Below, piece after piece: positions 20,232 through 54,471 of a stretch of DNA of 59,772 bases. Below the pieces are notes generated by a model that saw only the letters and a program-made list of their open reading frames with translations, was not told the DNA's origin and did no database searches. Each line of letters opens with the position of its first letter. The first letter of the stretch is position 1. The translations under genes and the position numbers were made by a program. The DNA is from a virus: positions 1-59,772 of IMG/VR virus record IMGVR_UViG_3300042319_001458, one strand, 5' to 3'.

Positions 20232-20461
20232 TTGTCGGCCTTATCGTCTAACTTATCGAATATTTTACCAAGCATTTCTTTTACTTCTTTCATAGCTTCG
20301 GCAAACTCATCCTTGCGCAAATAATGGCTTGGAAGCTCAACCTCAATCTTATGAATGTCTTCTTTAAGCTCTTTGACTGCTACCCATAACTCTCTGGCAA
20401 ACCATCCAAAAACAGCTATTGCCGCGCCAACGCCAAGGTTAAGGATATTTTGAAAGTCCAT
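20228..20461 (-). CDS. Single-span membrane protein with coiled coil; second holin or antiholin candidate
   Basis: 77 aa from ATG 20461, which shares one base with the stop of the glycosyltransferase gene. Residues ~6-22 are hydrophobic ('NLGVGAAIAVFGWFARELW'), followed by a charged helix ('VKELKEDIHKIEVELPSHYLRKDEFAEAMKEVKEML'). Such proteins sit directly before endolysins in alphaproteobacterial phages. With the 56-aa protein at 19548 this gives two membrane proteins around one endolysin, so one may be holin and the other antiholin. Not provable here. Confidence 0.65.
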   Translation of the reverse strand: MDFQNILNLGVGAAIAVFGWFARELWVAVKELKEDIHKIEVELPSHYLRKDEFAEAMKEVKEMLGKIFDKLDDKADK

Positions 20462-22194
20462 TATTCTTTCTCGCCCGTATACCACAGGAGATTCTCCTGT
20501 AGTCGCTTGTCGTCTGGATCAAGCTCACAGGCGAGCCTGCCCTGTTCTATCGCCGCTTCCTTCAGCCCAAGACGATACGCGGCAATTGCGGCGTGATCGT
20601 GCGGGAGGGCTCCCCAAGAAGATGGGTCAGTAGTATAAACTAATTCTTTATTTTTGATAGATAGGGCGCGCATCGCAGTCCCATAACTTTCCGCCCATTT
20701 GTTCTGTTCATAATATAATTTAGTCAGCGCCACCCAAGGCTCGCGCGTGTGTGGCGCTTCAGCAGCCGCCTTGTGATACCAGCCTTCAGCCGTCGCTTGA
20801 TCTCCAAGCGCCGCATAGCATTGGCCCAAGACGCGCATGGCGTAGCAGCGATCGTTGACCCAAGTCGCTTCTGGCATTTTCAGATAGCGGTTGAGCGCCT
20901 CAATCGCCTCTTCATAGCGGTTATAGAAATAGAGCTCACGCGCATAATAGAAGGCGTTTCGTGGGCAGTGTGGATCTTCTTTGACCGATAGCTCCAGCGT
21001 TTCCATATAATGACCCCTGCTTTTTGTGGGGTCAGGATGATGCGTTATGAGCAAAAAGTCAGTGTGCGCCCACACTTCGTTAATCCTCAGATCAGCCCTT
21101 ATGTGCTCATGGCAGGGATGGTGCCAGTAATAGCCGTGACGGGCGTGGATCTTTTCTGAGTAGAAAACGATCCCCAAGCTCCAATCAAACTTATAGCGTA
21201 AGTGCGTCGTCTCAGGCGTCCAAACGCGTTCTATTTCCTCCCGCCAGCCGGGTTCCATAACCTCATCCGCGTCAAGACAAATGCAGACGTCCATATCGCG
21301 AGGAATAAGAGCAAGAGAGGCATTACGCGCATGATCGAAGCGCCAAGGCGTAACGCAGATCTCATGAACGGTGACACCGTTTTCCTTTGCGATCTTTACT
21401 GTATCATCCGTTGATCCAGTATCGGCAATGAGCATCATGTCAGCATCTCGTGCTGAGTCGGCCCATCTTTTTATGAATTGATCTTCATTTTTTGTTATTG
21501 TGTAGACTGCGATCTTTAATTTCTTTTCCATCTTTTTTCTGGCCCCTTCTCCAAAAAATAGATCCAAATATTGTGGGCGGTTCTTTATCAGCCACGGCAT
21601 GGCGTCGTCATGCAGCTTCTGCGTGTTTTGTCCTAATGTCTGCGAGCCTGCGTGATGCACATAAGCGCGAGAAATATAATGCGTGTATCCTTTCGCATTT
21701 AAATCCTCGCACATGACGTCGTCGCTATACCATTCAATTGGCGGCAGGAATGTATCCTCATACATTTTTTTAGATAGATAATGGAATATTGGGCTTAGTC
21801 TTTTGATTGGGCGGCATTCATGCTCCCAAGACCATTTGCCATATTCTAATTTGTCTGATGGCGATTGCTGATAGCGTATATTTTGTGTGTAGCGCGTGAA
21901 GTCAGTGTGTGCCGCGACAAAGCCTAGTTTATCGCCGTGTATGGCTTTTAGATTTTCAATATCCTCACATAGCAAGCGATAGCTATCGGGCGTTAAAACC
22001 AGATCATCAGCGCAGACGATTACTTCATCATATTCTTGAAAAGCTATTTTAAGCGCAAAGTCATATGATTTGGCGGATGTCTCTTGCTTTGGGCTGTATA
22101 TTAGATGCGGGACATCAGGCGCGTATGCTTTGATGCTTGCCCGTAGAACGGGCAGACATTTTCCGTCCACTGTGCAAGTGACAATTGGAAGCAC
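20461..22194 (-). CDS. Double glycosyltransferase with TPR repeats
   Basis: 577 aa in three parts. Residues 1-220 look like a GT-A-type domain ('VIVCADDLVLTP', 'WYSDDVMCEDLNAKGYTHYISRAYVHH'). Residues ~225-400 are a GT2-type domain: 'AVYTITKNEDQFIKRW', 'IADTGSTDDTVKIAKENG' and the DXD-like 'CLDADEVMEPGW' (around residue 308). Residues ~400-577 carry TPR-like helices ('CYAMRVLGQCYAALGDQATAEGWYHKAAAE'). It probably transfers a sugar to a protein or glycan. It lies between glycine-rich fibre genes and the lysis cassette, so a virion fibre or host surface glycan is the likely target. Both sugar and target are unknown. Confidence 0.75.
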   Translation of the reverse strand: MLPIVTCTVDGKCLPVLRASIKAYAPDVPHLIYSPKQETSAKSYDFALKIAFQEYDEVIVCADDLVLTPDSYRLLCEDIENLKAIHGDKLGFVAAHTDFTRYTQNIRYQQSPSDKLEYGKWSWEHECRPIKRLSPIFHYLSKKMYEDTFLPPIEWYSDDVMCEDLNAKGYTHYISRAYVHHAGSQTLGQNTQKLHDDAMPWLIKNRPQYLDLFFGEGARKKMEKKLKIAVYTITKNEDQFIKRWADSARDADMMLIADTGSTDDTVKIAKENGVTVHEICVTPWRFDHARNASLALIPRDMDVCICLDADEVMEPGWREEIERVWTPETTHLRYKFDWSLGIVFYSEKIHARHGYYWHHPCHEHIRADLRINEVWAHTDFLLITHHPDPTKSRGHYMETLELSVKEDPHCPRNAFYYARELYFYNRYEEAIEALNRYLKMPEATWVNDRCYAMRVLGQCYAALGDQATAEGWYHKAAAEAPHTREPWVALTKLYYEQNKWAESYGTAMRALSIKNKELVYTTDPSSWGALPHDHAAIAAYRLGLKEAAIEQGRLACELDPDDKRLQENLLWYTGEKE

Positions 22195-51642: not shown

Positions 51643-51945
51643 TTAAAAATCGTCGTCTGCGTCGACTGGGTTACTCTTTGCGCGATCCATTGCCGCCTTT
51701 CCCAGGGGGGTGTCCGCCAGCATGCCCAAAGCATCCATATAGACTGCCAGAAGAGCTTGCTCCTCGGCCCTCTTGGCAGCATCCTGCTTACGAAGAGCAA
51801 CGATCTTTTTAATAATTTTTGGGTCAAACCCATTTACCTTGGCCTCGACGTAAACTTCTTTGATGTCATCGGCGATTGCTGCTTTTTCTTCCTCGAGCTT
51901 TTCGATTCGCTCAACAAGCGCCTTGATCTGGTTGTTGGTTACCAT
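51643..51945 (-). CDS. gapR-like: GapR-family (DUF2312) nucleoid protein
   Basis: 100 aa. 'QIKALVERIEKLEEEKAAIADDIKEVYVEAKVNGFDPKIIKKIVALRKQD' matches DUF2312 almost along its length: a long N-terminal coiled coil, 'NGFD-K-I-I-K-K-I-V-A-L-R' DNA-binding section and a short C-terminal helix. GapR is an alphaproteobacterial protein that clamps overtwisted DNA and is needed for replication and cell-cycle progression. The acidic tail 'DADDDF' is an extra. It is the second leftward gene from the divergent promoter region at 52.15 kb. Family call strong; phage role inferred. Confidence 0.9.
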   Translation of the reverse strand: MVTNNQIKALVERIEKLEEEKAAIADDIKEVYVEAKVNGFDPKIIKKIVALRKQDAAKRAEEQALLAVYMDALGMLADTPLGKAAMDRAKSNPVDADDDF

Positions 51946-52132
51946 TTTTCAGTCCTTCCTCAATTTGATGGCAGATATGATTCGCCATGTGCCAGCAATA
52001 GTCACAGGTCTCGAGACAGGGTTCCGTAGGGTCTGCAGCCGTTACACTTCCATATCCATCTCGATTTCGATTTATTGTGGCCCCGAAGGTGCAAACCCCA
52101 CGAGCAACAATTTTTCTTAAATTTACGTCCAT
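51911..52132 (-). CDS. Cys-rich hypothetical protein, 73 aa
   Basis: ATG 52132 sits in GGAAAAATTGAC-ATG, close to the shared leader of this phage. The protein has 'CLETCDYCWHMANHICHQ', a Cys/His cluster that could bind zinc, and its 3' end overlaps the GapR start by 35 bases. First gene of the late leftward direction. Unknown. Confidence 0.6.
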   Translation of the reverse strand: MDVNLRKIVARGVCTFGATINRNRDGYGSVTAADPTEPCLETCDYCWHMANHICHQIEEGLKNGNQQPDQGAC

Positions 52133-52146
52133 GTCAATTTTTCCGC

Positions 52147-52181
52147 TTGACGTATGAAGAAACTTCACTATTATACGAATC
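52147..52181 (+). promoter_or_regulatory. Promoter P1 with palindromic operator and GANTC site
   Basis: -35 TTGACG (52147-52152), 16-base spacer, -10 TATTAT (52169-52174). The spacer holds a perfect palindrome, TGAAG-AAA-CTTCA (52155-52167). Two bases after the -10 lies GAATC, a GANTC site (52177-52181). The same layout recurs at 53535. On the opposite strand TATAAT (52175-52170) could serve leftward genes with a weak -35, making the palindrome a shared operator. Confidence 0.85.
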
Positions 52182-52210
52182 ACTGATTGATATTGAACTG
52201 GAGACTGACA

Positions 52211-52522
52211 ATGACAAACGCTTCAAACACCGCCGCTCTCGCCGATGCCTACGCTGCTCTTAAGCACGAGGAAAACTCAATCAAGGCTCGCCTCGAGACT
52301 GTCAAGGCCGAGATCCTGTCGGTTGGCGACAAAGAGATCGTTGGCGACACCTGCGTCGTTGCAGTCGTCGACAAGAAAGGCGCTGTATCGCTCGACAAGG
52401 ATGCTGCGATCTTGCTGCTCCGTCAGCTGGGCGCGACCGACGAGCAGATCGCTTCGCTCAACAAGGTTGGCAAGCCTACGCAGGCTCTGCAAATCAAAGC
52501 CAAGCTGGCGCTCGCAATCTAA
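52211..52522 (+). CDS. Hypothetical protein, 103 aa
   Basis: ATG 52211 follows GGAGACTGACA. 'TNASNTAALADAYAALKHEENSIKARLETVKAEILSVGDKEI' is a coiled coil; 'GDTCVVAVVDKKGAVSLDKDAAILLLRQLGATDEQIASLNKVGKPTQALQIKAK' forms a strand pair and helix. It resembles small host-interaction proteins of phages but no family is recognised. First gene of the P1 transcript. Confidence 0.7.
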   Translation: MTNASNTAALADAYAALKHEENSIKARLETVKAEILSVGDKEIVGDTCVVAVVDKKGAVSLDKDAAILLLRQLGATDEQIASLNKVGKPTQALQIKAKLALAI

Positions 52523-52614
52523 TGCGAGCCCTCTGGCTGGTCCTCACAACATTGGCGGGCACGTTGATCGTGCCTGCTCTGTCCCTAGCAACGCTGTATA
52601 TTGTTTATCATTGA
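52522..52614 (+). CDS. 30-aa single-span membrane peptide
   Basis: TAATG overlap with the previous gene. A basic start and a long hydrophobic stretch ('ALWLVLTTLAGTLIVPALSLATLYIVYH'). It is the second such tiny membrane peptide in the genome. Translational coupling to the gene before it and the strong membrane character support it. Role unknown. Confidence 0.55.
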   Translation: MRALWLVLTTLAGTLIVPALSLATLYIVYH

Positions 52615-52625
52615 TGGAGATTGAT

Positions 52626-52841
52626 ATGATCACTCTGACAAAACCAATTCCAGATAGTCCTTTACATGATTATGATGACGATACCATCAAAGCAATGATC
52701 AAATTTTGGCGCAACGATATGGAACTTGAACCAGACCAAACAATTTCTCCTTTAATGTATAAAAACTTAATCGATAATGCTTACAAAGTTCTTGGTTATA
52801 GATGCGCTATTCAATACCTAGAAATGTATGGAGACGAATAA
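52626..52841 (+). CDS. Hypothetical protein, 71 aa
   Basis: GGAGATTGAT-ATG leader. Acidic and soluble ('DSPLHDYDDDTIKAMIKFWRNDMELEPDQ', 'LGYRCAIQYLEMYG'), helical. Unrecognised; part of the P1 small-gene set. Confidence 0.65.
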   Translation: MITLTKPIPDSPLHDYDDDTIKAMIKFWRNDMELEPDQTISPLMYKNLIDNAYKVLGYRCAIQYLEMYGDE

Positions 52842-52842
52842 A

Positions 52843-53043
52843 ATGAGTATGGCAATCTCAAATAAACTGTCGGGCTTTTATGTTTCTAGTTTGCCAGTTG
52901 TCTTTGCCGGCGATTTACTAATGATTGGCACGATGGTGCTTGGCATGGGCATTTATTTTGAGAACGCTTCAACAATCTTTTTTGGCCTGTATGACATAAC
53001 GCTTGGCGCAATCTTCGTTAAAAACACAATCAAGGAGAGTTGA
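52843..53043 (+). CDS. Two-span small membrane protein, 66 aa
   Basis: ATG 52843 (GGAG 9 bases upstream) is better than the in-frame ATG at 52828, which overlaps the previous gene. Two hydrophobic helices ('SSLPVVFAGDLLMIGTMVLGMG' and 'STIFFGLYDITLGAIFV') with a short loop. Membrane location is clear; function is not. Confidence 0.65.
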   Translation: MSMAISNKLSGFYVSSLPVVFAGDLLMIGTMVLGMGIYFENASTIFFGLYDITLGAIFVKNTIKES

Positions 53044-53044
53044 T

Positions 53045-53494
53045 ATGGGAACTCGCGCTGTATATTCGTTCAACGATGGTGACGATAAATTCCACGTCTA
53101 TAAGCACTGGGATGGATACCCAGAAGGCGCTGCACTTTTCTTCATGAATGCTATTCCATACGCATGGGGCGGCACTCGTTTTGAGGCAATGGATTTTGCC
53201 GCAGCATTTGTTGCTGGAAACAAAAAAGAAGGCGGTGGCGACGTCTACTTTACCAAGGGCCCGAACCGTCATGGTGATTTAGAGTATATTTATGAGCTTT
53301 CTCAAAACAGTCTTGGTGGCCTAATGATTAAAGCTTACAGCGTTAATTGGGACGAAACCAAAAACAAAACCGTGAAAAATAAAAAGCCAATGTTCAGCGG
53401 ATCTCTATTTGCATTTATCTCTAACTATGGCGACGAAGAAACAAGAAAACGCGCCGAGGAACAGTGGCTGCCGAAAGAAAAACAGGCGGCGTAA
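53045..53494 (+). CDS. Conserved phage protein, 149 aa
   Basis: GGAGAGTTGAT-ATG leader. 'MGTRAVYSFNDGDDKFHVYKHWDGYPEGAALFFMNAI' is a recognisable phage and bacterial family start ('TRAvi.f.d..........-v-kHwDGYPeG') of unknown function. It ends with a basic stretch and is the last gene before a strong terminator at 53497. Confidence 0.75.
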   Translation: MGTRAVYSFNDGDDKFHVYKHWDGYPEGAALFFMNAIPYAWGGTRFEAMDFAAAFVAGNKKEGGGDVYFTKGPNRHGDLEYIYELSQNSLGGLMIKAYSVNWDETKNKTVKNKKPMFSGSLFAFISNYGDEETRKRAEEQWLPKEKQAA

Positions 53495-53496
53495 AT

Positions 53497-53524
53497 AAAA
53501 GGGGGTTCGGCCCCTTTTTTATTT
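53497..53524 (+). terminator. Strong intrinsic terminator ending the P1 operon
   Basis: A perfect 8-bp stem (AAAAGGGG with CCCCTTTT, loop GTTCGG) followed by TTATTTTA. It ends the P1 transcript just before promoter P2, so the two small operons are separate units. Confidence 0.92.
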
Positions 53525-53534
53525 TACACCATGC

Positions 53535-53569
53535 TTGACATGTGAAGAAACTTCATTATATTACGAATC
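53535..53569 (+). promoter_or_regulatory. Promoter P2, duplicate of P1, with palindromic operator and GANTC site
   Basis: -35 TTGACA (53535-53540), 16-base spacer, -10 TATATT (53557-53562). The spacer carries the same TGAAG-AAA-CTTCA palindrome (53543-53555) at the same place as in P1, and GAATC (53565-53569) again follows the -10 by 2 bases. Similarity continues downstream into 'ATTGATATG'. A duplicated regulatory module. Confidence 0.88.
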
Positions 53570-53591
53570 ATAGATTGATATGGAGGTTGAT

Positions 53592-53795
53592 ATGAAAATC
53601 ATCACTTACCAATGCGATTGGACAAACGAGTGGATCGCTTTCGACGAAAACTATGCCGATGACTTTACGCCTCACGGTGTAGGCTCGACCATCGGCGCAG
53701 CAATTGAAGACCTAAAAAACATCATGGAGCAATACTTGGATTCCGAAACTAAATATAACGCATGGCTTGCTGACTTTTTATCTTATGGAGCTTGA
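53592..53795 (+). CDS. Hypothetical protein, 67 aa
   Basis: GGAGGTTGAT-ATG leader. 'MKIITYQCDWTNEWIAFDENYADDFTPHGVGSTIGAAIEDLKNIMEQYLD' is an acidic protein with a helical second half, of the type 'V..S...-G-AI-DL' found in phage and toxin-antitoxin-like small proteins. First gene after P2. Unknown. Confidence 0.65.
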   Translation: MKIITYQCDWTNEWIAFDENYADDFTPHGVGSTIGAAIEDLKNIMEQYLDSETKYNAWLADFLSYGA

Positions 53796-53796
53796 T

Positions 53797-54039
53797 ATGA
53801 CCAAACAACCTAAACCAGACTTTATCGTTCACGCAGGCGAGTGGGCAACTGTGTGGCAATTCCAGCCTGTATCAAAGCAGGCTTTGGATCTGCTTGAAGA
53901 GATCCACATTGAGGATTGGCAATGGACTGGCAACGGCATGTTTGCCGTTGATCATCGCCCTGCACGCGATCTTGCTCGCTACATCGTCGGCGAAGGCATG
54001 ACGGTGTTTCACCCTGAGTATGGATATTTTGGAGGTTGA
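53797..54039 (+). CDS. Hypothetical protein, 80 aa
   Basis: GGAGCTTGAT-ATG leader immediately after the previous stop. 'WATVWQFQPVSKQALDLLEEIHIEDWQWTGNGMFAVDHRPARDLARYIVGEGMTVFHPEYGYFGG' has a DUF-like helix and aromatic tail. The pattern 'QPVS..A..WL.-H......W.G-...VdhRy...L...m...G' recurs in small phage proteins of unknown function. Confidence 0.65.
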   Translation: MTKQPKPDFIVHAGEWATVWQFQPVSKQALDLLEEIHIEDWQWTGNGMFAVDHRPARDLARYIVGEGMTVFHPEYGYFGG

Positions 54040-54043
54040 TATC

Positions 54044-54373
54044 ATGGATCAAAAACGCCCATACATCCTCGCGTCAAACCAGCTGTGCTACGACGCCAAC
54101 CCAACGCTATGGAATACATTTTGTGCACTGACTGGCCGACCTATCGGCCAGCCTAATTATAATTGGACTGAACAAGATGTTGTTGTCGCCATGCTTGCAA
54201 GAGGATTAAACAAAAATGACGCCGGAAAAAATGATTCAGATAATGGACAGGCAGGGAATGTCGAACCAGGACGTAGCTTCAATATCAGGCGTGACGTATC
54301 GTCAGGTAATGTCATGGCGGTCAGGCCAACATCCAGTTCCGATGATGCTGTCCTTTTTGTTGTTGGCTCTTGA
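54044..54373 (+). CDS. Hypothetical protein, 109 aa, with extended overlap with an HTH gene
   Basis: GGAGGTTGATATC-ATG leader. The first ~58 residues ('DQKRPYILASNQLCYDANPTLWNTFCALTGRPIG', 'EQDVVVAMLARGLNKN') look like a genuine small protein; after that, from about 54216, the sequence becomes a disordered shadow of the HTH gene in the next frame. Either the 158-base overlap is real, or the gene ends early in the related phages and a frameshift has extended it here. Confidence 0.55.
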   Translation: MDQKRPYILASNQLCYDANPTLWNTFCALTGRPIGQPNYNWTEQDVVVAMLARGLNKNDAGKNDSDNGQAGNVEPGRSFNIRRDVSSGNVMAVRPTSSSDDAVLFVVGS

Positions 54374-54440
54374 CGAAGGCGCATTGAGTTCAGACTGGCT
54401 TGTGTCAGCACTGGAAAAAGAATTAATAGAACGCACATAA
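54216..54440 (+). CDS. HTH DNA-binding protein, 74 aa; candidate P1/P2 regulator
   Basis: 'PEKMIQIMDRQGMSNQDVASISGVTYRQVMSWRSGQHPVPMMLSFLLLALDEG' is a clear Xre-like HTH: helix, 'MSNQDVASISGVTYRQVMSW' turn and recognition helix, then a hydrophobic dimer helix. It is the last gene of the P2 transcript and lies in the only region with the TGAAG-AAA-CTTCA palindrome. It is the best candidate to bind that operator and control its own synthesis; this is inference. Confidence 0.7.
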   Translation: MTPEKMIQIMDRQGMSNQDVASISGVTYRQVMSWRSGQHPVPMMLSFLLLALDEGALSSDWLVSALEKELIERT

Positions 54441-54446
54441 AGAAAA

Positions 54447-54471
54447 AGGGGGAGGTAAGTTGCCTCCCCCT
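54447..54471. terminator. Terminator between convergent small-gene and replication operons
   Basis: A perfect 9-bp stem (AGGGGGAGG with CCTCCCCCT, 7-base loop). Leftward transcription meets TTTTTCTTT right after the stem, a strong terminator for the operon starting upstream of 55278. Rightward the stem lacks a U-run. A second inverted repeat (CACACAT/ATGTGTG) follows at 54473-54499. 54500-54594 holds nothing else I can identify. Confidence 0.85.

Follow-up and report, generated by a model that had tools for sequence, protein, structure and literature searches.

Aca repressors are small helix-turn-helix (HTH) proteins of phages that are encoded at the end of an operon with an inverted repeat in its core promoter, and that repress their own expression (PMC9410906, PMC9410881). 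In Cluster A mycobacteriophages such as L5 and Bxb1, one repressor serves 20–30 sites, which from one relative to the next have drifted in concert with that repressor (PMC6550527). Here we analyze a 59,772-nt stretch of viral DNA, an IMG/VR virus record (the window), together with related uncultured phages. The comparison points to an arrangement with features of both systems, in which an early-expressed autorepressor very likely shuts all early promoters together, in an Aca-like manner.

The initial annotation of the window described two promoters, P1 and P2, that share a -35 element, a 16-bp spacer holding the palindrome TGAAG-AAA-CTTCA, a -10 element, a GAATC site and the bases that follow, in front of different genes. 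This description holds, as the 52-nt copies at 52145–52196 and 53533–53584 share 85% of their bases, and a ranking of sigma70-like sites across 50–59.8 kb places P2 first and P1 third. The exact palindrome occurs twice in the whole window, as operators O1 and O2 (Table 1), while palindromes with up to two mismatches number five against 1.65 expected. Palindrome counts inside the window are by themselves weak evidence, and certainty comes from the family comparison below. A megablast search with 46–59.8 kb returned no near match to the window among phage records. The 103-aa first gene of P1 belongs to the commonest family of first genes under operator promoters in relatives (a cluster of 19), and the three small ORFs that follow it would be members of the same operon, judging from their spacing and the terminator behind them. 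Elsewhere in the window, 20461–22194 on the - strand strongly matches a phage beta-1,4-glycosyltransferase family (phrog_13126, 2.2e-105).

Table 1 Features of the P1/P2 region in window coordinates
Feature	Position	Strand	Remarks
GapR-family DNA-binding protein	51643–51945	-	PF10073, 1.1e-30; neighbor of P1, outside the operator system
P1 -35, TTGACG	52147–52152	+	
Operator O1, TGAAG-AAA-CTTCA (TGAAGAAACTTCA)	52155–52167		In P1 spacer; conserved in relatives
P1 -10, TATTAT	52169–52174	+	Spacer 16 bp
GAATC	52177–52181		Directly after P1 -10; CcrM-type GANTC; TGATTCG on - strand; clade-specific
P1 first gene, 103 aa	52211–52522	+	Without Pfam or PHROG family above cut-off
Three small ORFs, putative P1 operon	52626–52841, 52843–53043, 53045–53494	+	ORF calls
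Intrinsic terminator-like site	53497–53519	+	Separates P1 operon from P2
P2 -35, TTGACA	53535–53540	+	
Operator O2, TGAAG-AAA-CTTCA (TGAAGAAACTTCA)	53543–53555		In P2 spacer
P2 -10, TATATT	53557–53562	+	Spacer 16 bp; 11/12 matches together with -35
GAATC	53565–53569		Directly after P2 -10
P2 operon genes	53592–53795, 53797–54039, 54044–54373	+	First two without Pfam/PHROG matches
HTH protein, 74 aa, proposed repressor	54216–54440	+	Recognition helix Y28 R29 Q30 V31 M32 S33 W34 R35
Terminator-like hairpin	54447–54471	-	Boundary between HTH gene and convergent leftward replication genes

The comparison set comprised 29 non-redundant uncultured phages, the window included (389 kb per strand), with contigs of distant relatives gathered through terminase matches. 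The initial annotation had made its proposal depend on conservation of the palindrome in related phages, and conserved it is: promoters with GAA-N5-TTC in the spacer are present in 29/29 phages, at 70 sites and with 1–6 per phage (six in L290). Their general form is X-GAA-Y-N3-Y'-TTC-X', where the Y beside GAA is often, though not always, symmetric. In the same scan of the 29 phages, sites averaged 0.14 (at most 2) for the 63 remaining palindromic trinucleotide cores, and the opposite strand gave a single site; with the pattern reversed, 30 records yielded no match, compared with 34 true matches from 17 records. The start of GAA lies 9 bp from the start of the -35 element in 59 of the 70 sites and 10 bp in a further 10, the commonest -10 offset corresponds to a 17-bp spacer, and a ribosome binding site (RBS) with a start codon follows 45–67 bp downstream in 69/70. 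As at P1 and P2, the genes behind these promoters differ, with 69 first genes falling into 34 clusters (21 singletons).

The half-site varies from phage to phage, and the promoters of one phage mostly have it in common. Close relatives (L048/L100/L104/L114, L091/L207 and L075/L202) carry the same palindrome at the same place in the spacer, and those with the region fully covered have two to four palindromes per phage. Sites of distant relatives differ yet stay symmetric (CGGAAGAAACTTCCG, GGGAAATGGTTTCCC, GGCGAAAAGATTTCGCC, TAGAAGTAACTTCTA, GCGAATTTTGTTCGC and others), the L136-type site being CGGAAG..CTTCCG and the L176-type site GCGAAAAGATTTCGC. The 85% identity of P1 and P2 would also fit a recently copied sigma70 promoter whose palindrome is incidental spacer sequence. 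Given that the arms change together in relatives and remain palindromic, at a fixed position and upstream of unrelated genes, this reading can be regarded as negligible, and it is refuted by the core counts (70 sites for GAA, 0.14 on average for the other cores). We take the palindrome to be an operator of a family-wide regulatory system.

A strict promoter pattern picked up no spacer palindromes in the stretches scanned of isolated phages whose terminases are distant homologues (Paracoccus Pkon1, Rhizobium X3_2 and Y52, Erythrobacter R6L and Roseobacter CRP-902), nor in the Manatee Spring metagenome phage MW202675. In the sub-clade of L290, L296, L166, L252 and L275, a hairpin, CACGGTC-n-GACCG, appears to be conserved at the start of the transcripts, ahead of the RBS; a conserved 5' hairpin in all promoters was rejected, as it is confined to this sub-clade (mean z -0.54). 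The first gene at operator site 6347 of L426 (reverse-complement coordinates) encodes an ArdC anti-restriction protein (PF08401, 2.5e-40). The unrelated contigs L096, L058, L098 and L213 (Anaerovirgula) have spacer palindromes of the form TTGAC-GTGAAG..CTTCAC-TATAAT, which probably belong to other XRE repressors.

The likely binder of the palindrome is the 74-aa HTH protein encoded in P2's own operon, a candidate already named in the initial annotation and strengthened here by gene order, by covariation and by its presence in 8/8 near-full-length records. In each of these a strong homologue occurs once, with one in-frame TGA in G018 and a second, trivial match in G020. Wherever one locus covers both, the last operator is followed downstream by the HTH gene, and in a looser scan 41 of 44 distinct HTH sequences belonged to loci with one operator or more. 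Profile and fold searches both place the protein in the XRE/Cro-CI-like superfamily, with HTH_3 (Pfam) matched by 11/23 members (best 3e-6) and the NCBIfam VC1465 family matched weakly by 12/23. An AlphaFold model built from the alignment (pLDDT 92) is all-helical, with five helices and residues 28–35 as the recognition helix. Its Foldseek neighbors are HigA2, Aca2, P2 C, C-proteins, Aca1 and 434, none at an E-value below 0.001; for HigA2, Aca2 and P2 C, TM scores are about 0.56–0.71 and E-values 0.017 or worse. These fold matches are generically XRE-like. Against Aca PDB chains, which represent some Aca families only, the HTH profile gave E-values of 0.002 for Aca2, 0.12 for Aca3 and about 0.7 for Aca1. 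Strong-looking matches to BurrH structures (4cj9, 4cja) were disregarded, as they arise from many weak helical repeats.

A small XRE-like HTH protein with P2 C and the 434 repressor among its structural neighbors might also be expected of a temperate phage, in which it would serve as a lysogeny-type immunity repressor. Matches to tyrosine integrase (PF00589) and resolvase (PF00239) are, however, absent from the eight near-full-length records, with positive controls. No divergent cI/cro pair is seen at the locus, and the operators of the early cluster point rightward, the leftward ones of L290 and L296 excepted. Since none of these eight records, possibly incomplete, carries a recognized integrase or resolvase, control of lysogeny is quite unlikely.

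Across the family, residue 32 of the HTH protein and the outer base X vary together. Among the 26 phages with a clear base, residue 32 fixes X without exception, with a mutual information of 1.48 bits that equals the full entropy and is the best of 74 columns: Q goes with C (13), N, R or T with G (8), and M, I or Y with T (5), the classes N/R/T and M/I/Y having been grouped after the data had been seen. Phages with T32 show a mixture at X, with some A besides G. For the inner base Y the best column is residue 30, where Q corresponds to G, T, S or C to A, and A to T or C; L310 is the exception (Q30, Y mostly A). The terminase tree shows four changes of X and likewise four of the residue-32 class, the clade pattern being broken by L275 and L426.

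Permutation z-scores were rejected as proof of covariation on the terminase control, because terminase columns that mark clades likewise score z near 10 and part of the correlation therefore reflects shared ancestry. We relied instead on excess information and on independent switches, which for X number only about four. The excess information is 1.09 bits for residue 32 as against at most 0.76 in all 356 terminase columns tested, and residue 30 reaches 0.84 bits against a terminase maximum of 0.67. All GapR columns likewise have less excess information than residue 32 in the phages common to the HTH and GapR alignments; in this smaller set the z of HTH residue 43 is slightly above that of residue 32, yet it carries less information.

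A prediction written before the scan was then compared with 36 new loci that had been selected for X = G or T. Five of the 36 contain a strong HTH homologue (E < 1e-20), none of them with Q32. N32 occurs with X = G in L463 and L465 and I32 with X = T in L464, while H32, a letter outside the predicted set, occurs with X = G in L447 (6/6 half-sites) and with mixed X in L444. Against the Y rule, L464 combines Q30 with mostly A at Y. For residue-32 letters already known, the scan agreed on X, which is support and not proof, because the five loci are partly related to each other.

This covariation bears on a further reading, in which a repressor of the host or of a resident prophage recognizes the operator as a host-sensing element and the phage HTH protein works elsewhere. 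Similar TTGAC..GTGAAGTAACTTCAC..TATAAT elements in unrelated contigs, Anaerovirgula among them, are consistent with such a reading, as are about 30 contigs that have a matching spacer palindrome and no HTH homologue within the DNA covered. Nevertheless, the HTH protein is encoded beside the operators in each record covering both ends, and the operator covaries with its recognition helix above the level of terminase and GapR columns, which makes a host-encoded reader very unlikely.

We propose instead that the phage HTH protein represses the early promoters. Upon infection, sigma70 RNA polymerase of the host would read the strong P1 and P2 (1–6 counterparts in relatives), yielding many small early genes, with the HTH protein encoded last in the P2 operon. 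A dimer of this protein would bind X-GAA-Y-N3-Y'-TTC-X', whose center lies about 14–15 bp after the start of the -35 element, and by lying over the spacer would exclude RNA polymerase. All early promoters, including that of the HTH gene itself, would then be turned off at once, through negative autoregulation, and early expression would end; because the operator also controls the gene of the repressor, this shut-off would be delayed.

The same operators and covariation would fit an HTH protein that activates the early promoters from the spacer site, for instance through a change in spacer twist or a contact with polymerase, since the sign of regulation is not given by sequence. A 17-bp spacer is the optimum for unaided sigma70, and activation of the MerR type uses long spacers. 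With -35 and -10 elements near consensus and spacers of 16–17 bp, no activator would be needed at these promoters; moreover, the HTH gene sits under its own operator, and Aca proteins with inverted repeats in the core promoter are repressors (PMC9410906). Activation is therefore unlikely. As to the earlier suggestion that a protein bound in the spacer would block or bend both promoters at once, common control is supported by the operators and the covariation, and blocking and bending are not separable by sequence.

The initial annotation had also seen in P1 a switch between early and late transcription. This part was not borne out, as in the window no operator faces the leftward genes and no conserved leftward sigma70 promoter overlaps P1. 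The leftward block beside P1 has its first ORF start at 52132 and includes the GapR-family gene; the only trace of an overlapping promoter is a TATAAT that the -10 region yields when read in reverse complement, with no conserved -35. Upstream of gapR in L290 and L296, a leftward promoter (TTGCAATGCGAATTTACTTCGC, then TATATT/TATAAA) has its own operator and is divergent to the early cluster, so that such coordination exists in some members, though it is not seen in the window. A GapR homologue is found in 22/28 relatives' loci (23/29 with the window), beside the first operator promoter and on the opposite side of the operators from the HTH gene. GapR is an alphaproteobacterial nucleoid protein, and its gene hints at an alphaproteobacterial host.

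The GAATC sites of P1 and P2 were rejected as an essential part of the element for the family, since GANTC lies near the operator at 7/70 sites, and retained as a clade feature. Within the window's clade, most promoters have TGATTCG on the bottom strand just after the -10 element, with varying neighboring bases. YGAKTCK is the motif reported for GcrA-activated genes of Caulobacter, and the bottom-strand TGATTCG of P1 and P2 fits it (PMC7987155). Unlike at GcrA/CcrM promoters, the motif here is limited to the window's clade and lies outside the general element; we regard the apparent match as a lead, not a finding. GANTC is depleted in the window (95 against 218 expected), in L331 (0 against 68) and in L290 (1 against 65), as is GAATTC in the window (1 against 22), which suggests avoidance of host methylation or restriction sites.

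In 434 and lambda Cro, the order of outer and inner bases along the helix is opposite to that of residues 32 and 30 here. We offer, as a speculation that we doubt more than we believe, that the family uses a simple natural code in which the outer base is set by residue 32 and the inner one by residue 30, with the helix opposite in sense to 434 and lambda, and that the early promoters of the window's clade are also tuned by host CcrM methylation through GcrA. If true, operator specificity would be readable from sequence across uncultured phages.

Common repression by the HTH protein would provide the regulatory logic of a large group of uncultured phages, represented by at least 600 matching stretches in each of two terminase searches. 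The operators allow early genes to be marked from sequence; these are mostly of unknown function, and one or more of them encode an anti-restriction protein. The covarying residues and bases also constitute a ready set of predicted repressor/operator pairs of differing specificity.

Compared with known systems, the locus shares with the Cro proteins and repressors of lambda, 434 and P22 an XRE-like HTH fold and palindromic operators that overlap early promoters, and the 434 repressor appears with the HTH protein in profile and fold searches; unlike those phages, it has no paired cI/cro switch and no tandem operators. With Cluster A mycobacteriophages it has in common a single repressor, many cognate sites and their joint drift. 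The Cluster A sites, however, are asymmetric, mostly outside promoters and found in temperate phages, whereas those described here are symmetric, placed in early-promoter spacers and accompanied by no detected integrase. Relative to Aca systems, no known acr gene was found in Pfam and PHROG searches, in which the early genes of the window matched no characterized family; the sequence match is at superfamily level only, and we do not assign the protein to an Aca family. The likeness lies in the HTH gene downstream in its own operon and the inverted repeat within the core promoter, both present here, and in the ArdC anti-restriction gene that one relative has first under an operator promoter. 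What sets the present phages apart from Aca systems is that one protein would serve 1–6 separate early promoters, through an operator fixed in the spacer.
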